Assembly: GCA_964019415.1 (NCBI GenBank)
Contig: OZ025882.1
Span: forward strand, 3,764,427-3,828,426
From: Ianthella basta
Taxonomy: Eukaryota > Porifera > Demospongiae > Verongiida > Ianthellidae
Length of the DNA stretch: 64,000 nt
Direction: 5' to 3'
Positions 15,401 to 60,600 of the stretch are shown piece by piece. The position numbers were made by a program, and so were the translations under genes. The notes under the pieces were generated by a model, which was not told the origin of the DNA, made no database searches, and saw nothing but the letters and a program-made list of their open reading frames with translations. Positions within the stretch are counted from its first letter, which is position 1. Each line of letters begins with the position of its first letter.

Positions 15401-18400
15401 GGCTTTGATGCAAGCCTATCAGTCTCCCTCATAGTTTTCAGAAGAGCATTGAGTGCTCCCAAGATGTCCACCTCATCACTCTGCGTGCACTTGGAAAAGG
15501 TTGTGCAGGGTGACAGCTGGTCGACAAACAAAGCACACCCAAAAAGGTACTTGGCATCTGTCCACTTGCTGTAGTACCCTTTCAGCTTCGCATGATCAGC
15601 AGGCCTTACAGACTTGTCCTCACTCAGTGCAGCTAGGTGGTTGGTATGGGCACCATGTACCAAGGTTGACTCCATGGTGAGATTCCAGCTCACAAATCTG
15701 AGAGTACTTGATGAATGGAAGCTTCTCAATTACTACAAAATGGGCAATGTTGAATTTGAATTGCAGTTTCCCCCTCTCATAATCTGACAACCTATTGAAC
15801 GCCTGAGCAAGTGGAGCACAGCTTGAGGGAGGAAGTCCTGCAGACTTAGTATGTTGCTTCTTCAGGAGCATCACTGCGTGAGCGTGCTGATCGCTTTGAA
15901 CATGGTCACGGACGTTGCTTGCTGACAGAATCGGCTCCAACGATCCACTTGTCACTGAACCTTCTTCCTGCTCTCATACTCGCTAGAGCAGTTCAGCCAC
16001 GACATTGTCTGGTACTCGCGATCAAGCTCACGTTGCCACTTCTGGAACGTAGCGTAACCAACTTGCCACTTCTTAGCATCGCTCCCTCCCTCCTGGGTGG
16101 CACCGCCTCTCTTCATAGTGGAAGATTGTTGGACGCTAGCAATCTGGAAAATTCCCCTCAATAAGAAAAACAAACGAACAACTTAACTCACGAACAAAGA
16201 ACACTGGAACAAAGGCTCGTTCTTCCAGTGTTCCTGTTGGTGAATAGAGCTATTGCACAACCATGCACATGTGATCGGTCACGCGTACTGACCACATTAA
16301 ATAATGCGCAGTCAATTTAAAAAAGAAAAACGTTCAGAATTTGACCAATGACCGGACGTTATTTTGACCACTGTGAATTTGGTCCTGTTTTTGCTACTAT
16401 AAGGCATTTCTCAGTGTCTTAAAAGGCAACAGCGTGCTGAAGCCCATGTGATATTATTGGTCTTGGATCAAATTTGAAGCATACCAATATTCATTTCTAG
16501 CTAAACTAGCTATTTTGTACCTGGCATATTTTTTTGTGCTTTCAGTTTCAAACCTGAGCCTGACATAACTGCACACACAGACTTACTATTTGTTTCCAAT
16601 TTGCTGCTTTATATATTAGGCTGTGAATGTTACCAATACCAATAAGTCAGTGTTGGTAAGCCCGACTGAACGATATGTAAGTGTGTATGTTGGTTCTCTC
16701 TTCCTGCAGCCCCACAATTTAGCGGAGATCAAATCTTGAATATCCATGCCTTCTCTGTCTATAAGTGGTGTATTCAAGGTGCAACAGAAGGCCAGAACCA
16801 TGTGCAGCAAGCAGAGGAAGTTCAGATGATGTTGCAAGCTGTAGGGAAATATTGCTTGAGATTACTTGAACAGTGTGAGAGGAGTAAGTGTACGGAAACA
16901 TTAAATACTGCATACAGACTTAACAATCCACAAACTGCAGCTACATATATTGATGCAGGTCTGATGGACTGTTCCTGATACTAGCTTTAATTTTTAGTCA
17001 AATTTTTAGCAGCCCCTATATTGTTTTCAATTTAGATATTCGTATGGCTTCATGTTTGTAATGGACTATATAAGTATCAGACAGGTAGTGCTGTCTATGT
17101 AGGGATGGCAGTGGTTGTTTGTATGCTGTAATACAAACGAAAAGTTGCACTACTCCTGAATAGGACCGAAAACTGACAAATGAAGCTTCCCATGAGGAAG
17201 TGGGAACTGAGCAGTGCATATAGCCAACCTTAATCTACATTCAGTCTACATTATTAGTAGATATATCTTCCTTAAATTACTCCCTACAACTTTGTCTAAA
17301 TTTGGCTAACATGTGGATGATCAGGAATGGCCTCAAACTGAACACATCAAAGACCAAATGCATGCTTCTGCACTCTGCCTGCCGAGTGGTTCACGGTTCC
17401 TTGACCTTGAATATGATGGACTTCCCATTAAACAGGTCAGATGTATCTATCACCGAACTTCACTAGCCAAAACTTTGAATTAATAAAGCCAAACGTTTCA
17501 GCAACTATGCAGTTGTCATCGTCAGTGGCGAATACAAAACAAAGGATAAGCTCGCTTTAAGTACACTAAAAAGGCGGAAAAAAGGTATGAAATCAAAACG
17601 AGAGTGACAGCTAATGACATACATGAATAAATTAACCGTTGAAATTAAGGGGGGGGGGCAGAGTTAGTGATCTAATTAGAAAACAATGAATTGTACAGCT
17701 GGGGCATTGAGCCTTTGTCCCTATTTAATGGTCTGACCTGTGATCTAATGTGTATGGATTCTAAGATTAGTCTCTGATGTAAATGTGCCCCCCTTAATTT
17801 CAACGGCTAATTTATTCATGTATGTCATTAGCTGTCACTCCTGTTTTGATTTCATACCTTTTTCCCCACCTTTTTAGTGTACTTAAAGCGAGCTTATCCT
17901 TTCTATTCTGCTGCTGCTTCTCGGAAGGAGCTTGGTCTTACTACTCTGTCTGTTAGGCACAAACTTCATACCTGTATTATGATGTTCAAGTGCCTTCATT
18001 CTTTGTCTCCACCTTACCTCAGTACCCTATTCCACTCTTCTTCATCCCGCCACTTCACTTGGTCTTCTTGCACTCGCCAAATTAATCTTCCTACGGCCAG
18101 GACTTTCTTTGGATGCAAATGTTTTAGCTTCGTGGACGCATCAACTTGGAGAGCTCTCCCAAAGGAAACAAGACTGACAAACGACCTCCATATATTCATC
18201 AGACAATGCATGGATTCTGCAAGATTGATGCTGTACCTTGCACAAGGAAGCAGCTGTCTGTATTCAGATCGATTGTGCAACTGCAAATGGTTCTTCAGGT
18301 TGGTCGTCCCACCGGAATGTGACACTTCAGCTCCACACAATCTACACATGTCTTCTTCCCTGAAAGTAGTTTTACACTGCTGTCATTCGGAAACACAAAA

Positions 18401-21399
18401 TGCTTCCAAATAGGTGCCTTGTTTGCTGAGGGTGTAAAAGACATCATCTCTCCCCATGAGTCATTCGCTACATGCAGTGCTAATAGTCTGCGGCAAAATC
18501 TCTTCTTGCTGCTTCAGTATGCAATTTCGCAGCCTTACACATGCTCATTTTCAGTATAATACAAGAACTATCGTACACTGAAATAGCAGCCATTTTACTG
18601 CAGCAGTTTGCATTATGGCTGTCGCGATTGTCGTTCGATGCAGAACTGCGTGCAGTTGCGTAGCACCACACTTTTCAGTGGTCCGGCCAGTCACCAATAT
18701 TTTAGTAACCTAATCAATATAACTAGCTAATATCATTGATTTCAAAATGGATATGTTTGCTTCCCTGAGGAAATGGCACAGTGTGCAGGGCTGTATAATA
18801 AAATCGTGAAGTGGAATAGGGAGGACGTGTTCGTGAGTGTAGCAAGCGACAACATTTTTACCCTTACCCTTTTATCAAGCTGATGACGGCCAATTTAAAC
18901 AGGACGAATGACGTCATATGATGTAATGCAACAATGACTGCCGCATCAATTAGCGCGCATGATAGCCTATTGAAGTGATGCATTGCTAAAGCATTTTCCT
19001 TTTAGTTGGAACCTATAATCAGGTACATTTACAAAGCTACTTCTTGGTTTATGGCTACATTTTACCTCCTAAATCTGGAAGTGTGTGAAAATTGGCCAGC
19101 TTTGATTTTCAAAAATCTGTTTCTTTAGCAAAAAGTGGTCTGGCTGTGGCCGGACCAGGTGCTACGCCTATGGCATGTCATCTTCTTATCAGTAACTGTT
19201 TAGCGTGCCAAGTAAGTTCCAAGGTGAGTCGTGAGTCGAATGACAATTGCAACAACCATTTTGCAAACCGCTGTCAATTAACCCAGTAGTTCTGCTCCAT
19301 TTTTAAATTGTGACGTTATAGTAAAATGGAGGGCAGAAGCATGACAGCACAAGAACTTGAGGCTAGTTTCAGCAGTGTAGTAGAAACGAGGGGCAGTAGC
19401 TCCTTACCATAGCAGTACTTCAAAGAGAATGAAGTCTTGAAACTTTACAGGGGTAAAGTCTCTATAGTTACGTATGTAAGCTTCTACAGCCAAGGTTGTA
19501 GCTATAACTATAGCTAGATAGATAGCTACAATAACGGGTTACTACACTAGTATGGCAATAATTGACCGGCTGTACACATAGCTGGTTATTAATCGATTAT
19601 TTCATATCAGTTCACAGCAGTACTATTCAATGTGTCCTAGGACGACAGTATTCGCTACTGAATATTGTCCTAGGGGGACAGTATTTGCTGTTGAAGAGTG
19701 TCCTAGGGGGGCAGTATTCACTTTGTATGAATGTCCTAGGGTGACAGTATTCACTATTGAATAGTGTCCTACAGGAACAATATTCACTGTTGAATAATGT
19801 CCTAGGAGGACAGAATTTGCTAGTGCCCTAGAGCACAATATTCTCTTTTGAATGGTGTCCTGATGGAACAGTATTCACTATTGAATAGTGTCCTAGGGGG
19901 ACAGTATCTACCCTTATATGAAAGTACTAGTCGGACAGTATTGGCTGGTGATAAGTGTCCTTGTGAGACAGTATTCAGTATTGAATATTGTCCTAGGAGG
20001 ACGGTATTTGCTAGTGAATGGTGTCCTACGAGAACAGTATTCACTATTGAATAGTGTCCTAGGAGGACAGGATTGATGCTGAATAGTGCCCTAGGAGAAA
20101 GTATTCGTTAGTGAATTGTGTTCAAGGGGTTAATTTTCACTATTGAATATTGTCCTAAGGGACCAGTATTCTCTGTTGAATAATGTCCTAGGAGGACAAT
20201 ATGTAATAGTTAAATGGCGACCAAGAGGTGTCTGCGCAATTTAGAGCACAAAGCTTGAGGGCGCGAAGCGCCCGAGTGCTGAGTGGTCTAAATCACGTAG
20301 AGACACCAATTGGTCGCCATTTAAGTGATATAGATCCAAATCCATTCGCTTACCCAATCATTTCGCCTTCCTCTCGCTTCTTGATGGCGTATGCATGAAT
20401 GATGACATATTACGATGATATTTGCCCCTGCGGAGTTCCTGCAGATGGTTATATGGGACTTATAACCCCCCGCGCTCTGCCCGCAACGTACTTTATGGGA
20501 TTTATAAACCCCCGTGCTCTGCACGCAACGTACGATTATGGGATTTAGAATCACGTGCGAAGCAATTGGAATGCTTCTCAGAGATTTAGAACCATCGTTT
20601 AGAGGCCTATTACCATGACAACAGGATCTATTTGCTGTTGAAGGTCCTAGGCAATATTCGCTATTGAATATTATCCTAGGGGACAGTACTTGCTAGTGAA
20701 TGGTGTCCCAAGGGGTCGGTATACATCTATTAATGTCCTAGTGCTTGGCTTTGAGTTCATGGAATGTGTAGGCTGTATGGTTTGATAGGTGGTGCACCTG
20801 TGTGGATATTTTATGTGCAACTAATCTTCTTACTATTTCCAGAACCTGTTTCAGCACAAGATGAAGCCCTAACTAACAGTGTAAGTTAGACATGCACACC
20901 TTTTTGCTGTGGTGTAGAACTTTATTCAGTTTGCATTTTGAGTATGCAGCAAACTGGTACGTATTTGATTTGATTTGATTTAATTACAATAATGGGACCA
21001 CTTAGCCAATTCAGGCTAATTTACAGGGTTGCCGTAAGAAAAAAGTTAGCAGTCAACATGTAGTAGCTACTCATATAAAAACAAGTATTTCGAGTTAAAA
21101 AAAACTTGTGGGGCTGCCGCCCTAACTCGAATACTTGCTCCTTCCAGTCGCTGCTGTGTTATCAATATGCAGTAGCTATTGCAACTAATTCTGTGTAATT
21201 CATCAACACACTTGTGAACACACTACATAGGCAAGAATAAACACAAATGATTGAAGCAGACATGAATAGAGTCAAAAATATTTTGACAAACATTTGCACA
21301 ACGGCCCAGTACATTAACTTGCTTATCTTATACACAGTTTGCACATTCTTAGAGTTGCTAACAACACAATCAAGTACATGCATGCATGCACGCACGCAT

Positions 21400-21450
<51 letters not shown>

Positions 21451-24400
21451 CACATGCGCACACACACACGCACACGCACATACGAGGGAGAGAGAGAGAG
21501 AGGTGCGAATAAAATGGTGGAAGGTCTCTAACCAGCAGTGAAGTTGGCTCTGTTCTAATGGAGTTCTAGGCTACGTTTCAGTATTTCTGTCTAGTGGAAC
21601 TTGTTCAGTCTCCCAGTACTCTTTTGGGAGATCATCAGTTACATCCCTCAACCAGCTCAGCAGTTTTGGAGGCAACTACTTTTAACACCTTTTTGCCATC
21701 TCAAGCATGGACCCACAAGCCCTACCAAATGGTTCTAGAGCCTGTCCTTTCTGTCTACAAGTCTTTGCCAGAGTAAAGAACCACCTGAAAGGATGCCCTC
21801 AAAGGCAATGAAGCTGGCATCTGTCCAAGACTCTCCTGGGACCTCTCAGTATCCGTATTCCCCCTCATGTGGCTCCAAACTAAGCTCCAGCCTCTGGCTA
21901 CACGGTATCTGAAGCGTTGGTGTGGTCTAGCCAGGTTAGCAGACACAAGCCGGCTGTTTCTACCCAAAGCCAATGGCGGCCTGGACCTATTGGAACTGAC
22001 ACTGAGGAGGCCGTGCAGAGGAGACCTGTTTATCGTCCGTTCCAAGAGGTGGTTGATGTGATGAAAGGGACCCAGGTGCCAAAAAGAAGATCACCAACCA
22101 CGTCAAGGCCAAAGTGCAGGTAGCAGACAATGCAGCCCGGCTCGCCCACAGTGCAGGTCTGACTGTTCAAGGCCATACAGTGCAGGACTTCCAGGGAAGA
22201 GCAGCTGACCTGTGGTCTACCACAGTGCTGTCCCTCCTAGAGCATCCTTTCAAGTTTGCCCTCAATGCCATCACAAACACACTGCCACACAACAGGAACC
22301 TCTTCCTGTGGAAGAAAAAGTCTTCCCCACAGTGCCAACTCTGCAGCCAAGAGCAAACCCTACACCACGTGCTCAACAACTGCACAGTGGCCCTGGAGAG
22401 GAGACGGTACAATGACAGGCACGACAGCGTTTTGGGCTGCATCCACTCCTTCCTCTCTGCACATCTACCACAGGACAGCAGGATTACTGTGGATCTTTCC
22501 AACATCCCATTCACTTTCCCCCAGAACATTATTGCCACTGATGAACGACTGGACATCGTCGTCTGGAGTGACTCCTCCATCCACATGGTGGAGTTGACCA
22601 TCCCATTTGAGACTGGTATCGAGGATGCAGCACAGCGGACGTATGCAGAGTTCGTGTAGAGATGCAAAAGTAATGGCTTTGCTGTTACTCTCACCACCAT
22701 TGAGGTTGGTTTGAGAGGTTTCATCCATGTCCCCAGCTTCAATCAACTTTATCAGATTGTGGATGCCAGCTCAAAGGCAAAGAGTGAACTGGAGAGGGAG
22801 GTGATTCGGCAAGTCATCAAGGGATTATTCTGCATATGGTGCAAGAAAAACTGGAGAGAAGACAACAGACTACCTTGACAACCTGCATGCTTAACTTTAC
22901 CCTTACTTTCTCACCTAATCCAACTGTAATTGCACACCTGAATAGTATTTTTATCTATTTTTCCTTTAACCCTAACCATTGACGCTATGTTATGTACGAA
23001 GCTTTTTAGAGTACTCGATTGGTAATACGTTCGTAACTGTGTAGCCGTAGCTAAGAGAGCTTATTGAAATAGCGTATTGTAAACAGCAAATCGTGCAGCT
23101 ACACCACGAGCGAAACGCAACCTATAGCTACTGTATTATTGTGACTGTTCACGTAGAAGTAGATGTTCTGGGTTCAGACGTTGTCCAGCTATCGAAAATG
23201 AGTCGTGTCCAATGGTTTCAGACTGCTGCGCTTTAAGCGTTGGCTGTTTGAACACTAAAACTCGTTATACAGAGACTCACCTATAAAACACCGCTCAATC
23301 TCTGCTAATTCCAGATGCTTTGAAAATGACCTCGTCAGTATGGGACTCTATTTTCTCTGATGCGAAGAATGACATGCGCATATTTGGCCATGTCGTTTCT
23401 CGCCAGAGCGATAGGCCAACATTGAGGAGCTGCTGCACAGTGAACCTTTTAGATGGCCATTTTCCTTTACAAGCGAAACCATATAAGCATACCGACATCT
23501 ATACCACCGGAAGTGGGACACGAAGCCATACAACAAAAGGTCCAAATGAAGACAATATAATAATTAAGTAAATGACAATTTAGACAGTCTGAATGATATG
23601 GCAGATTTGCCATAATTAGTGAGTTTGTTCATGTACAAACAGTTACTAGAAGATGCCCTTGTTGTGTAACTGTGACAGTTGGCAATAAGGTTTACCAGAG
23701 CACAGATGTAGGGTGTGGCACTGCTATTCTCTACAGAACGAAGTAGGCGTCGGAGGTAAACACTCCTAATGTCCTCGAGTGACAGCCAACCTAGTTGGGT
23801 TCATGCATCATATGCTGAAGTGAACTTTGGATGTTTCAAGATGACTCTAGATGCAAACTTCTGGGCTAGTTGGAGTCGGTTGGCATCTGCAGCTGTACAG
23901 TTGCTCCATACAAGGGAATGTGATGATTTCTTTTGAGATTATCATCAACGGTAACACCCAGCAGCTTTAATGTCCTAACTTGGTCAATGGAAGAGCCATC
24001 AAAGACAATGTTTAGAGTAGGGGGATGATCTCCTGCTGGAATGAATCAGCATGCATTTTGTCTTCAAGCGATTCACTTCTAGACAGTTCTGTCTCATCCG
24101 GAACTTCACTGCAGTCAAGGCTGAGTTCATCTAACTTTCAATTGATGCTACATTGTTACCTGGAATGAAGAATGTTGAGTCATCAACAAACAAGGTGGTA
24201 GTAATAGATAAATTAGCAACAGCTGGTCGTTGATAAACATAGAAAAGAGGATAGGTCCAAGATTCAAGATCCATTTGCAAGCACTACCTGATTTCACTGG
24301 TGAAGGTATGACTTCAGAAGCTGACACAAAGACAGTGACAAGTGAAGTTGTGTTCACAGTTTATGTAATAAGAGCTGACGGTTCACATTATCAAGTGCCT

Positions 24401-39400: not shown

Positions 39401-42400
39401 CTGCACAGTTTCTCTTGTGGACAGTTTATTTAGTGTCTTTCCTGTGTCTAACATATGTAAGTTTGCATCCCACACCATGACCCCTGGCTTCAAAGAAAAC
39501 CTGGAGCAGACTGACTGCTTCTCTAGCTTGGGCTAAACTGGGAACACATTGAGGCTCTGGCTCATCCTCTTCATCATCATCATCACAGTCTTCTGAAGCA
39601 GTGACTAATGCAATGACGTCATCATCTGCCAAAGTCTCTCCAGTTTCCAGCTGATCGTCGACGCTGACATAGTCCTGTGCAGACATAGGCTGTGCCCTGC
39701 TGATTGAGGGTGCTGCTAACAGAGCTGTCAGGTGATCAGTGGGGTCTGCTCTCCTCTGCTCAGCCACACCTGATGCTACAATGCCAGTGTGCTTCCAGCA
39801 ATTGGCGACAGTCTCTGGAGTGACTGCATTCCAGGCCCGTGTGAGGAAGCGAATGGCATCCTTGAGGTTGACGTCTGGTGGCATGTCATTCTCCAACTTG
39901 TGGATGAGATGTTCGACTTGAAACCTCTGATACCACGACTTGAATGTCTTGATGATGCCAGTATCCAAAGGCTGCAAATGACTTGTGGTGTTGGGAGGCA
40001 AGTAGTGCAGGCGAACACTGTGGAGCTCTACATCTGGGAAATGGCTAGACACATTGTCTAACAGGAGCAATATCTTCTGACCTTTATTTGTCATGCGATT
40101 ATCAAAAGCATACAACCATTCTCTGAACAAATAACTCCAGGCTTTTTTGTTGTTGGCATACCTCACATAGTTGCTTGGCGAGAAGTTGCTGAAGCATCGA
40201 GGGTTAGCACTCTTGCCAATGACAAAAGGCATCAATTTGTCTGTCCCGTCCGCATTGCAGCAAAGTGCAATCGTCACACAATCCTTGTACTGCTTTGTAC
40301 CGTGCTGTGGGCCTGTGGTGAGGGATCTGCTTGGGGGCATCATGTAGAACAGACCTGTCTTGTCAAGGTTGTACACATCACACAGACTATACTCTGCCAA
40401 CAGTGTCTTGAGGTCATCTCTGCCAGCATGAACAGCCATGGAGTCGACTGATGATGCCTCTCCATGCAACTTCCCGGATGCGTCGTTGTTTGAAGTGGCT
40501 TAGCCATCTGTTGAACCCTTGAAATCATCTTTAGGGTAGTCCAATCGACTTGCGAACTCCTTCGCTTTAGCAACTAGGATGGCATCGGTGACGATGGCCT
40601 TCTTAACTTCCAAACTGCAATCCCTAAACTGTTCTACTTCCTCAAATTTGGGTTTCTTTGCCTGCTTTGTCTTCAGTTGACGTGTATTGGTGGCCTCCCA
40701 GTCCAGTTTCCTCTTCAACATATCTCCCACAGTTCTTCGTGTGATCAATGTTTTCCATTTTCGCTGGAAAACAGTTGCAATATCTCCTTGTGTGGCACCT
40801 GGGTTATCTTCTCTGTACTTGCAGATCTCTCGTTTTTGTGCAATACTGATTTCTGTTCTTCCTCGACTGGCCATCTTGAAAATGCTAACACCTCTAGATC
40901 TATATATAGGTCCAGCACATGGCAGACTTTCAGGTGAAATACAATAATAAATAGTCTATTTCATCATCAAAAATTGTGGCAGATGGTGGTATTGGCAGGT
41001 GGCGGATTACATGTATAGTAAATGTGTACTATTTAATTCGTTTATTGAAAACTAGGGCGGATTAGCAGGTGTGGCGGATTATAGGGGGGTGGGGATTAGA
41101 GAGGTTTCACTGTATGTAAGTTGCAGCACCTTTCCGTTTTGTCATCTTCAGTTTCTTTACAGAGGGTCCAGGTATTCATCACTCGAGTCACCATCTACCA
41201 TTTCAGGAGGGAACTAGGTGATGTTGCCATTAGGAAAGTGTGCTGACAGCTGCTTCTGATGGCTGGAAAATGTCTAGCTGTTATGTAAACAAAGAAATAT
41301 AATATGAGCAGGCTAGCCCATAGAATGCATCATAATTATATTCATGATGCAAACGTTACAGTAACATGACCTGCACATAGGGTGGAGGTGATTTATTCCA
41401 TTCAAGTGCAAGGAACAGTATGAAGTAATAATATTCGTTGAGTCACACTTCAAATATAACATTAATGGAACTTGAAGTAGTAATGGGAGTCAGATTCTTA
41501 AGATAGTACAAGTAAAGTTGTTGGAACTGTCTTCAGACTTGACTGTTCAATGTGGAGCACTGAAATGTTTCCCTGAGGCTTGTGAATAGATCTTATGCAC
41601 GTTTCCCATTTCAGGAAATGACGATTGTGCAATTTTACCCATTTGGGTGTTGGTGTATATTTGGAAGATGGAGTACAAACTAGTGATTTTTAGCCAGGCC
41701 GTTGTTAAAAGGAAGACAAACAAATGACCTTACTGTGCCTGAACTGAAAAGGTGGCTGTCCTGTCATGGTGGGTTTCTTTGTGGCCTGAAGGGTGATCTT
41801 GTGAAGCGGTAAGTTCGGTAGCACACTGAGCTAAAGTAGCACATGAGCGGGACTCCAAGTGGAGTAGGGCTTCCACACAGTGTGCGCAGCCTGCATTCGT
41901 TAGAATAACTTCTGACTTTGTCTCCAGCTAGCGCAAGAGTCCAACTGACAAGGGACAAAGTGAGAGGCTGTTCCTTTGCATATGGGTGGAAGGTGATAGC
42001 TAGCTCTTTGCGCACGGTTCATGTTGTTGCATGTAACATGCTCTACTACGTAGTGCAGTGGTACTTGGTTACTTGTACTTTGTTTTCAGGATGGAGAAGA
42101 TCAACACACACTGTGTTGTTGTGCACTGTCCCACCCATGCACTAGTTTTAGCTCAGTGTGCTACCGAACTTACTGCTTCACAAGATCACCCTTCAGGCCA
42201 TGAAGAGACCCACCACGACAGGACAACCACCTTTCAGTTCTTTTGTCTTCCTTTCAACAACGCGCTGGCTAAATGCTCTCCACTAGTTTGTACTCCATCT
42301 TCCAAATACACACCAACACCCAACAGGGTAAAATTGCACAATCGTCATTTCCGGAAATGCGAAACGTGCATAGGCCTATTGCCATTTCAGGCATGAGAGC

Positions 42401-44674: not shown

Positions 44675-47600
44675 AGGAATCAGCACAAATGCTGCTTCTC
44701 TTGCTACAGTGCCTTGAATCTGTTGCATATGAAGTTGCTCTAATGGCTGTCAGCACAGAAGTGAAGAAGGGATGCGAATGGGTTTGTAATCATTTGTGCT
44801 AATCCACTAGTTATCAATTTGTTGCTAAGATTGGCTATGCAGTGTCCTTTCAGCTACAGCCTTTTCTTGTATTACTACTGTAGGACAAGAAGTACCTGAA
44901 GCTGCTAATGGTTCTCATTGGGGCTCTGGCTAAGGTATGTAAGTAGTTGTACCATAATGCATGGGCAATTCCTCTGATATGGTTAGGTGAATATGACTAA
45001 GACAACCTCATTCAGTATTGATGCAGCTGCAAAATCATTGTTTGCAGGTGTTTAACTAGTGACCCCAGGTGTTTTACTAGTGACCCCTGTGTCCTCACTC
45101 ACTTCAAAATCAAGGTATGCAGGCAGCGACAGAAGAGAAAGAATTTAAAAGGCAGCAGAAATGGTAGCAGCAACGTCACATACTATGGGGTGCCATTCAG
45201 GTCAAACATGCTATTGAATTTTTGGTCAACTTATGTAGCTATGAAAGTGTCGTACATATAAGTGGGACTGTCTTACTTATTAAACGGAAGTGTCCTACTT
45301 AGCAAGTGGAACTGTCCTACTTATAGTTGGCCTATCAACTCATTTCGGTAAAGCTTGGTGCATGCACAGACAGAACGTGTGACCTTTTCACTTCAGCTCC
45401 AGCTCAACAGGTGGACAAGGTGGGCACTTCTGTACTATGTCATAGTAGGCGAACAGAAGGGCGCACTTGTGCACTATGGAGATTTGTCTCTTGAACAGAC
45501 AACGTATACGACAGTGTGAATTGGTGCAGAAGATGTAGTGATTGGTTACTCAGTACAGTTTGTTAACGGTTGTCCTTTGCACTGGCCCAAGCATCTTTGT
45601 CTGTCACAGACTGTTCACTTCCATGAGTCAAATCATACTGAGTATCCAACCACTACATCTTCTGCACCAGTTCACACTGTCATGTAGGTCGTCTGTTCAC
45701 AAGGCAAATCTAATGCACAAGTGCACCCTTCTGGTCGCCTACCATTTTACAATGGTGTATGACGGTAAGCGTAGTCGACTAACACCAATCACATAGAACT
45801 GTATTATTACCAACAGCGTACACATACGTATACACAGCGTATACACGTGCATAGAGAAAAGAACAACAGAACAAAAGCTATTGTTACAGTCACGTGATGT
45901 GTGTGTGAGCATGCTAAGCGGAAGTGAGGTAAAGTACAGGAAACGATAATAATAAGGTAATATGATGTGATACAAGAAATAATAAAGAAGCCAAACAGTG
46001 TGCATGTGTAAGAGGTACATGTGCATCACACTACAGGTGCCCCCCTTGTCACTGTTGAGCTGGAGCAGAAGTGAAAAGGTCACACTTCCTATCTGGGCAT
46101 GCACCAAACATGATGGTAATGAGTTTGCTAGGTCAACTATAAGTAGAACAGTTCCACTTGCTAAGTAGAACAGTTCCACTTGCTAAGTAGAACAGTTCCA
46201 CTTGCTAAGTAGGGCAGTCCCACTTATAAGTAGGACAACTTCATGCAAGTTATAAAAGCCGGAAACCCGGAATGGGAAACGAAACGAAACAAAACAGAGG
46301 ACCAAATAAAATGGCGACTGGCATACAATTTTAATACGGGTTGGTTACCAGAGTCAGTGTCACGCAGCCGCTATGCCCGCGCACGGCCTTAAGGAATGGA
46401 GAGTTTCCTCCTCCCAACCGCTAAGTGGCAACCCCTAACTGGTTATATGTGCATACAGTATAGCTATAGCTATATCTGTATTCACCCTCAGTTGCACTGG
46501 TGAGGGCAACAAGCTAGCTACATAGCTATAGGCCAAGTTCATACGAATGTTAGCTTAATGACGTGGATGACCAAACATGTCTCTGATATTCTCTTCCCTG
46601 ACTTTCTCTGGCAAAAGAAGTTCACTCAGTTTCCGGCGAATGTTGTCCTTCATATGGATGAAGCACCAAAGATGAATCATTTTCTCACCAACTACTGCTT
46701 CTAAAGCTTTTTCAATAGCTTGCTCACCATCTGTACCCACTGTAGTGATATTGATCCGCTTTGGCTCCAGTTTCAATAACGTCGAAAAAAAGTAGTATGA
46801 TTCATTAGTATAAACAAACATGGGACCAAAAAAGGTTGGCGAGATTCTGGTGCTCTTATTGAGAACATGTAAGTGAAGGTAGTCACTGTCACATAGAATT
46901 TCCTCAGATTGAATGTTGGATCTATTCCTTAGACGCACGAGGCTCCCAAATTGGTGCAAAATCTGACGAAGTTCTGTAACTGGCTGTCAGTGGCCATGAC
47001 ACAGCATTCGTCAGAAGGCGCAGACACGCAAGAGCACTTTGAAAGAGACATTACTAGCTACTGCCACAGCCACACATGTCTCATTTACCAACTGTGCATG
47101 CGTCGATCCATAGGCTGATTACCAATTGTGCATGCGTCTCTCCTGTTTATAAAATTAAAGCGCACTGCTTTAATTAAATGAATCTGCAAGTGCACGAAGA
47201 TTCTTATGCGCAGCTACATGCAATGAATTAGCCGGAACTCACACTCCATACGCGAGGGCATACGTGGCAGTAGTTAATTTAGACAGTTCAACGAAGAGGT
47301 CCCAATGACTAACACTGCTGAGCTGCACGAGTCTGGTAACCAACCGGTGCCGCCATTTTTTCGGTCCTCCATTTCATTTTGTTTCATTTTGTTTCCCATT
47401 CCGGCTTTCCGGCTTTTATAACTTGCCCAATTTCATAGCTATGTTTACCAAAAATTCATTAACATAGTTTGACCTGAATGGCACCCAATAACATGTGGTA
47501 TATGACTGGATGGTAGCATAAGTGAAGGAATCTGAAACTTGCAGAAATGAGGGCGCTCAAAAAAACTGTACTAATGGAGACCATGCAAAGACGGAGCAGC

Positions 47601-52926: not shown

Positions 52927-54094
52927 AACGCATATATGTGTCATTTCTAAAGAGCTTCAGAAAACATCTTATTTCTTTGGCTAAAAGCTTTATATGCAAA
53001 GATCTGCTTCACAGGACTTGAAGCAATGTCAGAGCCTTCTCTCATCCGCCCATCTTGTGTCCTGGTTGCGCAGGTAGAGTGCAGCAACTACTTTCGTTCG
53101 AGCCACATTTCACAACATCTTCTCGTCCATACTTAAAGCCCAAGCATGCATGTGCTGTCACGAATTGGCACAAGAAGGACTACACTACTTCCTGTGAATC
53201 AGCCTGAAACAAGGAGTCTTTGCCGTCACAGTTTCAGGCCAAGAAAAGGCTCAGAGAATACCAAATCATGAAGTACACCTCACTAGGAACGTGTGCCAGC
53301 ACAAAGAGTCCAGATTGGGTCGAAGATGATCGTCGACACTCCTGTACTACATCTTGGAACATGACCTTCCTACCCCGTTGTTCGTGCGGTGAAATGAGCT
53401 GAAAGCGCAAAGACAGGCTGCTACTAAGTTCTTCGTATGCACAGCCATTTTAATTCCATATTTCATGCATGGTGCAAAGTTTAAACTTTGGGTCTAATTG
53501 GTTAAAATTGTTGTTCATTTTTCACACCTTTTGTGTTGAGCAGCTGCTGTCCACATTGCACACATCACTTTCTCACAGCATATGCATGTGTCACCTTGTC
53601 AGGAAGTGGCCATTTCTCTACTGAATACAATATGTTTCCGCTGCTGCACAGTACTGCAAGAAGCTAAAGCATTCAGTGCATGCGGGGCATTGTTGACAAC
53701 ACTTAACAGTGGCTTCCTTGTCTCCATTTTGTAGCTACAGTGAATTCAGATGATGTTTTCCAGGCTGCAAGTAGTTAATCCAAACTTGGTAAAATCTGGC
53801 GTACTTAACTACTTACTGCGAACCTGTGTCCCGTTGTTGAATATTTTCAGATACCCAAGACGTTGGAATGATGGTTGCTATGCTGAAACGTCCTTCGCGT
53901 AGGCCTCATTGCAGTCGAAGTGACTGCGTATAGTTACTAAGTTCTTCTGGCCGCAGCCAGAACAAGAGCTGCGAGCCCTTCTACAAAAGAATCCTTCTGA
54001 GTTATTGCGCATCCTTCTGATCCGCCATGCCCTTGGCAACGAAACGTTCAAGTGTTCAGCGAATCTGCTATGTTCTTCTTAACTTTTGAAAACA

Positions 54095-54225
54095 ATAAGC
54101 CAATTATAGTACACTAAGCCACCCTATATGCTTTTCAATTCACAACGCACGAGGGCATGAAGCACCCAAGGGTGAGTGAAATAAGAAGCATATAGGCTGG
54201 CTTAGTACTATAATTATATCTTATG
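54095..54225. repeat. Terminal hairpin of the inverted element
   Basis: TATAGTACACTAAGCC..CCTATATGCTT..TCAC pairs with GTGA..AAGCATATAGG..GGCTTAGTACTATA, about 42-bp arms, with a GAGGGC..GCACCC centre. Confidence 0.8.
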
Positions 54226-54475
54226 CCCCCACAGATGATTTACTGGGAACACATTGCACAATGCACTGTATTACCAACGATCATTTTACTGGTCATAGAC
54301 AATAGGGTGAGCTTGACTGATCTAGAAGGGCAATGACATCCCTTCCTCATAGGCGTATTTTGCCGGTTTTACTCCTGTACAGCAGTAGCGTTACCTTTCC
54401 ATTGTATTACAGTACACAAACAACCACTACCATCCCTATATGTGCTATCTGATTACACAAACCATAGCTCACCTG

Positions 54476-54662
54476 CTACTTCTCCCCTTCAACAACACTA
54501 GGAGGCTGCTCCCCTCCTTCTTCAGGGATTGGAGTTGGTTGGTTTTTGGCTTGAGCTGCTTCAGCTCGTTTCCTTTCCTTAGTCTCCCAATCCTGCTTCT
54601 CCTGGTTGACATAATACCAGAAATCCTTTTCAGCCTTTTCTACCAAGTCTTCTTCCTCATCT
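54476..54662 (-). CDS. DNAI2: DNAI2 last exon
   Basis: One carried base, then [20 protein letters not shown] and a Glu/Pro-rich end ([20 protein letters not shown]), stop TAG. The human counterpart is [20 protein letters not shown]. Acceptor ttatctttcag. Confidence 0.93.
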
Positions 54663-57600
54663 CTGAAAGATAATAAAAAAACACCTTAGTCTATACTGCC
54701 ACTACCAGAGGTGATCTGCATTAAGTGCTCACCCTTCTCCACCCCCACCACCTCCTGCGGTGCCTCCAGCTGCTGCAGCTGCGGCTTGCTGTTGTTTCAT
54801 CTTGAGCTTGAGTTCCTTGTGACGTGACTCAAGGATCTTCTCCCTTCTCACTTCCCTTTCAAAGACCTGAACATTGGGTTTGTATATAGACCAACACACT
54901 CAAAATCACAATCAGCAACAGAGAGCAGAAAGTGCATACACTGCATAGACTCAGTGGAACAGGGCGATGTATGGAATTGCATGCATATGTTTGTAATCAG
55001 AGATTCTGAGTTGGCTCCCTCAATCCGCCGCGGAAGATGCCTTCCTCAACCGGCCACATAGGACTGCAGTGTTGCAGTTGTGGTTACCAATACTGTTAAA
55101 TCAATTGACAGTTTACATAACATTTGATTTTAACACGGGTGCTTGTGGTATACTGGCCTAACCGCAGGCCAGTATCCAAAATACTGGCGTGGCAGCTCCT
55201 TTGAAGCATGACATCATCAGGTGATTGGTGTTAGGTCATTACATAAAATAAGTGTAACGACTTTTTATTTGTTCAGGAATTACTCCGTCAATTTAGAACG
55301 GAACGTCACAAAACGTGGTATGAATATGGAGAGGCTTAGCAAGTAGTACATAGTTGAGCCAAAATTTGGGTTAAAGTCGTTCCTTCCAAGTTCTTGTGTC
55401 TTTTACAGTCACTGCCATATCTAAGAGATAGGGAAAAGATCATGCTTTATTGTTTGGAAACTCCTTCAATTTTCAACCAAATTTTCACCAAAATTAGAAG
55501 GGTATACCACAGCAATCCGGGGAGTGACTAAATGTGGTTAGTACCTTAAGAATGCTCCCAGTTAAATAGAGAGTTTCCATTGGTTAAACGCTCAAATTTC
55601 AAACGATAGCCTGAACTCACCCGAAGGGCGGGTATTCAGCTAGCATCACTAATGCTGTGTTGTGTACTTACAACTGGACCACAGAGTCAACATAACACCA
55701 CCACCAAATTGTGCTTGGAGGTAAATAAAAAAACATGACACCAAGGTAGACGACCCCTTTCTCAGCTTCACTAAGGGTTCAAGGCCTTATCAACTCACCG
55801 CATTGACCAGGTTCTTCTCACTTGGTTGAAGGTAGCTCAGTCCAGAAGAAAGTTCAAGGACTGTTATGTTTCCCTGCTGTGATCCAACTGCTACAAGTGA
55901 TCCTAAGTTGTGCGCACGCACTGCATGTAAAGCATCATCGCTGACCTGTAGATGTCCGACCATTGAAGCACAGTGACATCTTACAGGGACGCTACAATAG
56001 CAAACACCCAATCACACAGCATCTAAACAGGCCTACACATTCATTTGATAGTTTGCTCACTACATACTTCATCTTAAGCAGCTGATACTGGCAGTGAGCT
56101 CACACACCTGCAGAGTTAGTGCTGGGCTACTCTGCTTGAAAGTTAGATCCCACACATCTACAGCCCCATCCATTTTAGTCAAGTAGTATACTCCAGGTCG
56201 AGTTGGACTCCAGCAGCCATCAGTCAATTCAACATCATAGTAGCTGACAACAGGAAGACAAACCACACCAATACTATCACAAGGTCTACGCATTCTGCAT
56301 AATATGTAGCACATACATAAAACCACCAGCAGATATCGCCTTACATGCTCAGGAGGGACATGTGTGTCAAAATCAGAGGCACCCTGAGAATAGTGCCAAC
56401 TGGAGCATGCCCTAATCATACAGAGTTGTAGCCACAATGTACAGGTGGCACATGGGTGTCAAACCGTAGCCAGTAACTGCATCCATCGCTGCACAAGACG
56501 CTAGGCTCATTCTACAGCTCTAGTGTTTGTTTCACTCTGTATACATTTAGGTAAGAGCCCAATTGGCCCACCTAAACAACACTATAGTGGTGAATAGGCA
56601 CCAGTAGTCAACACATTAACCTGTGCTTGTGATGACCAAGCCACAAGCCCAGCAGGTTGACTTCACCTATGCCTACCTACTACTGAGTCAAGTAGGTAGC
56701 ACATACAGCAAAGAACAATAACCATCAAACTCACAAGGAACTCAAACAGCCTCCCACTCCAAACCCACAACACTAGTAGGTCACATCAGTGCTGGTGCAC
56801 AGCATGTGAGAAGGGGCCCAAGGGTCCCGGATGGTGAACATGTAGGCAATCCTACTAACCTACTGTACTACGTATGTATGTGTACAGTACATGCGTATGT
56901 AACCAACACTCACTGGGTCCACATGATGGCAGATTCTTTGGCATCTTCAGACCATACCTACATACACATATGTAGATGAGAAAGAGACTGTTGCAATCCA
57001 CAGCCAGAGAGTATAAAAACATTCCAAAACAGATGTAAAATAACACTAGAACATAGGTTCTAGATAACCAATTCCTGCCATAAAGACTTCGCCATTTGAT
57101 AAATCAGATAAAGTAGTTAACCTTCAATCTTTACATGACATTAGTAGGCCTTACCCGTGCCATCCAGTCACTGACAGAGAGAAACTGCTTAGGATAGATG
57201 GGGTTCCTCTACAAAGCAAGAGAAATTAGGATGGGAGATGGCTTCACTTCAAACATCTCATTCTCTATTACTATTTCAACTCTCTAATTGTGTACACACA
57301 ACATTTTAAGTACATAGCATTCAGTATACATTCAATAGCTGTTTACAGTACTTTACAGGAAAAGGTTAGCTTACTACGCCCCTATGTACGCATGTAAATG
57401 TTAATTGGTATGCCCGTAACAGTAAATCACTACGCTTGTACTTGCAAATTTGTACTCCTGTAGCCTTTCTACGCCCTTACCGAATTACGCCCAAACAAGT
57501 ATGGGTGTACATACAAGTGTAGGAAAGAAGTGCTAACTGTTGGCATTCCCAATCAAATGTGCCATCCGCCAAAGGTGTGACAGTCTAGTGTGATATCTAT

Positions 57601-60600
57601 GGGGTGCCATCTGTAAAAAAGTGGGAAATTTGCGGAATGCGGAAAATGCAGGACTTCCTTTTTACGATTTATACATAGTAATATCCACCAATATTTATAT
57701 ATATATACTGTTACCAAGGAAACCATGTTTTCTCAGGCTTATGTCACCTATTTGCACATGGTTTCCTTGGTATTGGTATATATATTACGTATAGTATGGT
57801 GATTGCACAACTTTAGGGTGTTAAGCATTGGCAGGTGGTCCTATATAAGTGATATAGACCTGAAAAGAGATCTGATATCATGATATCAGACCTCTGATTG
57901 TGCAACAGGTCTGATTTCAAGAAGACGGTGGAGTCTACTAAATAATGTCAGGCGAAGCAGTCTTACCATTTCACTGTGGCCGTGACAATCAGTGCTGAAG
58001 AGGATCTTGACGCTCCAAGAAAAAAAGCAGCGACCGCAAAAAAATCGCCGCACGAAGGAAAGTCAGTTGGACAAGATACCAAAATACATGTGTAAAGGGA
58101 CGTCTTCTGGGAACCGAGCACTGTGTCCGGCTTTGTTGCGCGAAACTATGGCGTGGAAGACGCAGAGACATGGTCTGTTGAGCGACTTCTTCAGATGACG
58201 AAAAACAAAGTCCAACTGGACATACTCCCACATGTGATTAAAATTGCCCTTCTAGTTCTGATCTGCATCGAAGACGGTCTTCCTCCACAAAAGAAGCGTT
58301 TTCAAGACCCTCCATGCAGCACCCTGTCACGGCCACAACCAAAACTGCTGACTGTGCACTATTTTGAATTCGGTTCCTTGTCATCTCATTGGTCAGTGTG
58401 CTGCCAAAAGGCGCGCAGTATTCTCATTGGTCAGCCCTGAAGCCTGTTGTGACGTCACAGAGGCGTCTACTAAATGCAATGGTGCCGTAGCCTGTTCTAA
58501 GAAGGAGCAGTGACATAGGGCAGGCGCTTATTGAATGCAAATGGCATCGTATTGGGAGAGGTCTGGCCTCAATATTGCTGCGAAGGTTCATTCCTGTTTC
58601 GACTCACCATACTATATATCACATACATATATACCGTTACCAAGGAGACCATGTTTTCTCAGGCTTATATCACTTATTTGCACATGGTTCCTTGGTATTG
58701 GTATATATATTATATATAGATCTCTTGAAGGGGCTGTATTGGTGATATATCCCTCGGCTTTCAGCCTCGGGAAATATCACCTAACTAGCAGGGCGCCCGC
58801 CTTTGGCGGGCTTCTGCTATGGCGAGTTGCACAACAGCGAGTCGGCCCCAGCCAGTTTTGACGTATGTGAGCTGGTAGCAACGGAAGGTAGCTGCTATAA
58901 CGACGGCCGAGTTTAAAGTCGATCGTTGAACGACAGCGAATCAAACCATCCGACAACCGGACGTCAAGGGAGCGATAATTAATAACATGGCCATCAGCTG
59001 TGAACGAAAAACCGGACATAGAAGGATATCTCTTCAAGAACTGCAAGATGGGCAATTTCAACCCGTGGAGGACACTTGCAGAGCCCCACTTTATAATCCC
59101 TGAGAGTTTGGTGGCGTTCTGTGCAGTAGTTTTCGCCCAAATCATGAATGAACAGACAAACAAACAAACAAACAAACTGAATTATATATATAGATACAGC
59201 CCCTTCAAGAGGTCTATATATATTACATAGTACAGTAGGTTGGTCCATAGCCTCTATATAGGACCTTGGCACTTCACGCCTCAGTAAATATGTAAGCACC
59301 TCGGTCCTATATATCAGCTATAGACCTCCCTACCGTATTATATGTTATAATTAGTGTGAAATAAAAAGCATATAGGTTGGTTTAGTGTACTATAATTGGC
59401 TTATTGTTTTTCAAAAGTTAAGAAGAACGTAGCTGATTCGCTGAACTCTCGAACGTTTCGTCGCCAAGCGTGTAGGGGATCAGAAGGAATGCGCAAGAAC
59501 TCAGAAGGATTCTTTTGTAGAAGCGCTGCTGTTGTTGTCACCGTGGCCAGAGGAACTAGTATAAACTATGTAGCCACTTCAACTGCAATGAGGTCTACGC
59601 GAAGGACGTTTCAGCGCAGCAACCGTCATTCCGACGTCTTGGGTCTCTGAAGATATTCCACAACGAGATACAGGTTCGCAGTAAGTAGTTACGTACGCCA
59701 AACTTCACCAAGTTTGGATTACTTGCGGAAAACATCATCTGAATTCGCTGTAGCTGCAGAATGGAGATGAGGCAGCCACTGTAAGTGTTGTAGAGAATGC
59801 CCCCCTTGCATGGAAATGGTTTAGCTTCTTGCTGTACTGTGGAGCAGTGGAAACATGTTTTCAGTAGAGAAATGGCCACTTCCCGGCATTTCTTGCTTAA
59901 TGATTTTACATCCATCATTCAATCCTTGCATGAACATAGCATGCACACAGCAAGTCATGCTCAATAATGGGATGTCATGAGCATACTCTGCCATGACGTG
60001 ACAAGGTGACACACGCACATGCTGCGAGAAAGTGATGCATGCAATGTGGACAGCAGCTGCTCAACACAAAATGTGTGAAAAGTGAGCAATTTTAAAATAA
60101 AGTAAACTTTGGACACGAAGCGGATTGGCTGAAAATAAGAGCCCAGAGCTCCTGGTAAGTTTATAACCCAGCTAGCTGGGGTATATGGCACTGCCATGGC
60201 AACCAACAATAAGTTATACATATCAACTGATATATAATAATATTAGGCCTGTGCAATATTTCAATAATGCCGTGTATCGCGATATATCCACTGTTATCAC
60301 GATACGATATTTGCAGCTTGCTATCACGATAACTGCTACAAAGACTGTAGTAGGGTATAAGTAAGGTATAAGGCTCAGGAACAGAGAAAAACTACCTATA
60401 GTGCCCTTGGACTTGCTCAAGTGCCTATTTAACCAGAGAAGCTGTAAAGAAGACAGCACTGACATTGCTAGAAAGAAAACGTCAGCAGTTTGTTAGTAAT
60501 GGCTGCCAAGAAAATGACATCACTAGACTGCAAAATTCAGTTGTTGCCTTCATAAGGTGCAAAGAAAAGTGTTTAGCGATAATTTCCTTCCAGTTTTGTA

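Follow-up and report, generated by a model that had tools for sequence, protein, structure and literature searches.

We have analysed a stretch of 64,000 nucleotides from the sponge Ianthella basta (the window, C15:3764427-3828426) in which a foldback element almost certainly came first, a Mutator-like element (MULE) later entered its right arm, and an LTR retrotransposon, of which probably a solo LTR remains, separately entered the same arm. A stretch with its own inverted repeats and bounding 9-mers splits the right arm, as does an LTR-like stretch with 4-bp flanks, and the corresponding sites are unoccupied in other copies of the foldback family. This nesting shows that the MULE and the probable solo LTR are both younger than the foldback that encloses them. 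The assembly searched for related copies comprised 209 Mb in 96 contigs.

The foldback occupies 2307 bases including its insertions, begins with TATGGGGTGCC and ends with GGCACCCAATA. It has the long inverted arms, tandem repeats and short loop of a foldback element, and its parts are as follows.

45184..47490, strand not assigned: whole foldback element at C15:3809610-3811916, delimited by its inverted arms and by similar termini in other genomic copies
45184..45555, plus strand: left arm, without either insertion, from the arm alignment and the arm rows of the family
45636..47490, minus strand: right arm with two insertions within it, from the arm alignment
46140..46237, plus strand: 22-bp tandem repeats in the foldback arm, 4.5 copies
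45178..45183, plus strand: left flank of the foldback, ACATAC, a putative target duplication with its 6-bp length taken from 15 copies
47491..47496, plus strand: right flank of the foldback, ACATGT, a putative target duplication with its 6-bp length taken from 15 copies

Subtracting both insertions, each with its extra duplicated bases, leaves 833 bases by arithmetic. A scripted arm-versus-arm alignment found the arms about 85% alike, with aligned blocks of at least 20 bases being 85-96% identical. Besides the gap caused by the MULE, the arms differ by one 22-bp repeat unit, small indels and the second insertion of about 280 bases.

The largest interruption of the right arm consists of 1183 bases lying between ATGAAATTG and ATGAAGTTG when read on the minus strand. 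The features at this site are listed below.

46245..47427, minus strand: insert read as a non-autonomous MULE, 1183 bases (1182 without the outer G), with terminal inverted repeats and 9-bp flanks
47428..47436, minus strand: ATGAAATTG, outer copy of the MULE's target duplication
46236..46244, minus strand: ATGAAGTTG, inner copy of the MULE's target duplication
45241..45249, plus strand: single ATGAAAGTG at the MULE site in the left arm
46245..46294, plus strand: terminal inverted repeat of the MULE, inner end, 50 nt, 94% complementary
47377..47426, minus strand: terminal inverted repeat of the MULE, outer end, 50 nt, 94% complementary

The two flanking 9-mers are one base apart (8/9 identical), and none of 20000 random 9-mer pairs taken in the window at the same spacing reached 8/9 or better. 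The terminal inverted repeats, found as 50 nt at 94% by the repeat search, reach to about base 72-77 by local alignment. The outer end of the insert carries an unpaired extra G, so the end of the MULE is uncertain by one base. When one 9-mer is kept, both flanks align to the left arm across the junction.

The first-pass annotation of this DNA, made from the letters alone, had read the left arm at 45238-45252 as GCTATGAAAGTGTCG, and both its coordinates and its motifs proved right. Its 9-bp duplication holds insofar as the 9-mers bound the insert, but the two copies carry a one-base mismatch and the left arm has diverged: ATGAAAGTG differs from the flanking 9-mers by one and two bases. The left arm is therefore a divergent copy and not the exact pre-insertion sequence; by itself it was rejected as an exact empty site, and for this reason family copies were used as empty sites instead. 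The annotation had also foreseen that the arms would align with a single gap of about 1.19 kb. That length of the right arm is indeed unmatched at the 9-mer site, but it is not the sole gap, and in a free alignment 10 bases within the insert matched by chance, which divided the gap into pieces of 917 and 271 bases.

At least 90 genomic matches to the foldback arm were listed (40 of 51 candidates scored), and the empty-site comparisons cover 30 loci among them. Across the MULE site, 34 distinct arm rows from these loci could be aligned, the left arm of the window included; only uninterrupted arms can appear in such a one-piece listing, and rows identical over the stretch shown were merged. The 9-mer region is single in 33 of the 34 rows. 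It reads ATGAAATTG in five, ATGAAGTTG in two, ACGAAGTTG in five and ACAAAGTTG in six, the remainder being other variants. In the second row of L023 a short tandem duplication has produced two 9-mer-like words, not identical in their letters, without an insert between them; duplicated words can therefore arise in the foldback family by other means.

To reveal interrupted arms as well, which the one-piece listing cannot show, the outer and inner halves of the arm were matched separately in a second count. It covered 44 outer-arm matches at the same 30 loci, short partial ones included, two of which overlap on C8. The inner part follows directly after the outer arm in 36 of them (again including the left arm of the window), is separated from it by 60 and 96 bases in two and was not found in five. 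A gap of more than 1 kb, 1198 bases long, occurs solely in the right arm of the window, and the insert is therefore later than the foldback. That the foldback arm instead contained the 1.18-kb stretch from the beginning, and that the left arm and the other copies lost it by deletion, would agree with the unequal arms of the window copy but is hardly credible: the loss would be needed at about the same place in all the uninterrupted matches, and the stretch is flanked by 9-mers and ends in inverted repeats of its own. This explanation was rejected by the count of outer and inner halves.

The split arm, the bounding 9-mers, the inverted repeats of the insert and the uninterrupted family copies thus bear out the earlier view of a MULE nested in an older foldback. 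The assertion that one sequence proves both the boundaries and the order of insertion is supported as an interpretation but worded slightly too strongly, given the 8/9 duplication, the one-base doubt at the boundary and the inexact left arm.

The insert is best read, from its sequence features, as a non-autonomous MULE because a 9-bp duplication and long inverted repeats are combined in it with a transposase fragment that is kin to Mutator-type proteins encoded in long open frames. Its terminal inverted repeats are long, as in MULEs, and its target duplication has the length of about 9 bp that is usual for them, with an 8/9 match seen at a single insertion. The fragment is located as follows.

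46558..46986, minus strand: open frame of 143 aa, a fragment related to Mutator-type transposases, from Pfam and a long-ORF relative

Against the Pfam family MULE the 143-aa frame scored E=0.0089 and 16.9 bits, under the curated cut-off of 27.6. It has 17 genomic matches including itself, several of them inside long open frames, and shares 38% identity over 109 aa with the long-ORF relative L062. Five long relatives were scanned with Pfam. L062 matched MULE (E=2.6e-5) and Transposase_mut (0.0016), L065 matched Transposase_mut (3.7e-4) and MULE (0.0011), L069 matched MULE (1.2e-4) and L071 matched Transposase_mut (0.0098), all below the curated cut-offs; L068 had no Pfam match at E 0.01. Clear inverted repeats were present in two long-ORF relatives. 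These low scores, for the fragment and its relatives alike, would leave room for a DNA transposon of another superfamily with 8-10 bp duplications (e.g. hAT), yet such an assignment is very improbable: at the thresholds used, neither the fragment nor the long relatives matched any Pfam family other than MULE, Mutator and Transposase_mut, and the insert combines long inverted repeats with a duplication of 9 bp.

Among the genomic matches no further copy of this MULE was recognised with both of its ends; five other places were all partial, of which four (L002-L007) were aligned and two read through, and the 9-bp duplication of the MULE is therefore known from one insertion. The inverted-repeat pattern occurred at seven sites, including the two ends in the window itself; the backwards control gave four, so the weaker pattern sites mean little. 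Elsewhere in the genome, L065, L066 and L067 carry open frames of 921 aa with equal match score on three contigs, and these are possibly recently active MULEs. At L084 (C7:85000-93000) an inverted stretch of 1154 nt, 100% identical and reaching the end of the locus, adjoins two MULE-protein matches, one on each strand, a layout suggestive of a pair of recent copies standing head to head.

A second insertion of 278 bases, absent from the first-pass annotation, lies in the same right arm.

45758..46035, minus strand: probable solo LTR, TGTAGTG...CGTCATA, 278 bases, recognised by dispersed copies and 4-bp flanks
46036..46039, minus strand: CACC, target duplication of the probable solo LTR, one side, with the unoccupied site in L020 and L017
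45754..45757, minus strand: CACC, target duplication of the probable solo LTR, other side, with the unoccupied site in L020 and L017

The stretch has 24 listed genomic matches, the window's own included. In L041, L042 and L043 it continues into TTTGGTGAC, which we take, by resemblance only, to be like a primer-binding site, and the copy in L040 has AGCA on both sides, a 4-bp duplication. Fourteen arm rows, all from uninterrupted arms, could be aligned through the LTR site, and in two of them CACC is followed by similar sequence. The unoccupied site has the expected form in L020 (GGGCACCACTGTAAAATGG) and L017 (GGGCACCAATGTAAAAC), and a less exact one in the left arm (GGGCACTTCTGTACTATG). With dispersed copies, a TG start, a short duplication and the resemblance to a primer site, but with an end in CATA and not CA, the stretch is probably a solo LTR. 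The same start and end might be those of some other kind of short element; this is unlikely, as the primer-site-like TTTGGTGAC follows CATA in three copies, and both this copy and the one in L040 have 4-bp duplications.

The history of the locus is then almost certainly as follows. The foldback DNA transposon came first, apparently with a 6-bp target duplication, which for the window copy itself is deduced from the family. Its right arm was later entered by a non-autonomous Mutator-like element, which duplicated 9 bp and was presumably moved by a transposase of Mutator type encoded at another place in the genome. In a separate event an LTR retrotransposon entered this arm too, duplicating 4 bp, and recombination between its LTRs presumably left the probable solo LTR. 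The left arm received neither.

The foldback family itself is probably not a MULE, because its target duplications, judged from the flanks of its copies, are of 6 bp and not of 9 bp. Other copies in which two ends were recognised are between about 220 and about 2070 bases long (the listed lengths being about 2 bases short). Agreement between the flanks of 15 copies is highest over the six bases adjoining TATG/CATA on the outside, at 0.59 identity; permuted pairs gave 0.28, and none of 2000 permutations came as high as the observed value. The flank test comprised 48 settings of offset and length with 2000 permutations. Three overlapping settings gave 0/2000, namely 6 bp and the 4-bp and 8-bp settings around the same bases; in the 8-bp setting, with 0.49 against 0.26, the two extra bases agree at about chance. 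Three further settings stood at 38, 43 and 92 of 2000, and the sole 9-bp setting listed gave 0.33 against 0.26 (38/2000). The foldback as a 9-bp-duplicating MULE was rejected by this 15-copy test. Perfect 6-bp flank pairs occur in 2/15 copies, L025 and L029, and the pair flanking the window copy matches at 4/6. The test excluded duplicates of copies already used (L009, L017, L018, L031, L032, L034) as well as loci in which two ends could not be recognised (L015, L021, L022, L024, L028, L036, L037, L038). Where several ends were possible, in L026, L030 and L035, the outermost one served, and L020, shifted by a base or two, counts mostly as a mismatch.

No open frame longer than 104 aa was found in three longer copies of the foldback. 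At one end of L026 (near 1617-1687) and of L035 (near 1452-1520) there are three tandem terminal units of about 26 bp, which suggests amplification of terminal units in this family.

Other repeats were noted in the window. A DDE_1 transposase (E=5e-41) is encoded at 39429-40499 on the minus strand, presumably that of a pogo-like element, next to an open frame at 40503-40955 without a Pfam match. At 22057-22656 on the plus strand a zf-RVT match (E=7.3e-6, 27.0 bits against a cut-off of 27.5) is likely a retrotransposon remnant. Long inverted repeats at 41594-42372, 17568-17874 and 53511-60089, among the 25 of 76 pairs listed, are perhaps other foldback-type elements, and a tandem array with a 33-bp unit in 17.9 copies lies at 19622-20202.

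The locus illustrates cleanly how nesting can put insertions in order, and it delimits both a MULE and a probable solo LTR. The nesting of mobile elements is already well known, and this is a neat but ordinary case that calls for no new mechanism. The foldback family with its 6-bp duplications may merit a proper description. The transposase groups usually linked to foldback elements are Mutator and P/Galileo. That the family defined by TATGGGGTGCC ends, 22-bp arm repeats and 6-bp duplications depends on a transposase outside these groups and has arms that serve as a landing place is conceivable, though rather doubtful. A literature search over titles and the openings of abstracts gave nothing pointing to this family.

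Among known systems, the insert resembles MULEs in its 9-bp duplication, its long terminal inverted repeats and its fragment related to MULE-type transposases; it differs from them in being short and non-autonomous, with the 143-aa fragment only, and no full copy of its family was present among the genomic matches. The enclosing element resembles Foldback (FB) elements generally, compared by architecture only, in its long imperfect inverted arms, tandem repeats and short loop. Tm1, presented in PMC3169594 as a Mutator/foldback family of root-knot nematodes, likewise has foldback-type ends made of tandem repeats, and other elements nested within its copies are reported there. According to the same paper, however, Tm1 has mostly 9-bp duplications and units of 13-15 bp, whereas the foldback family described here has 6-bp duplications and a 22-bp unit (PMC3169594).
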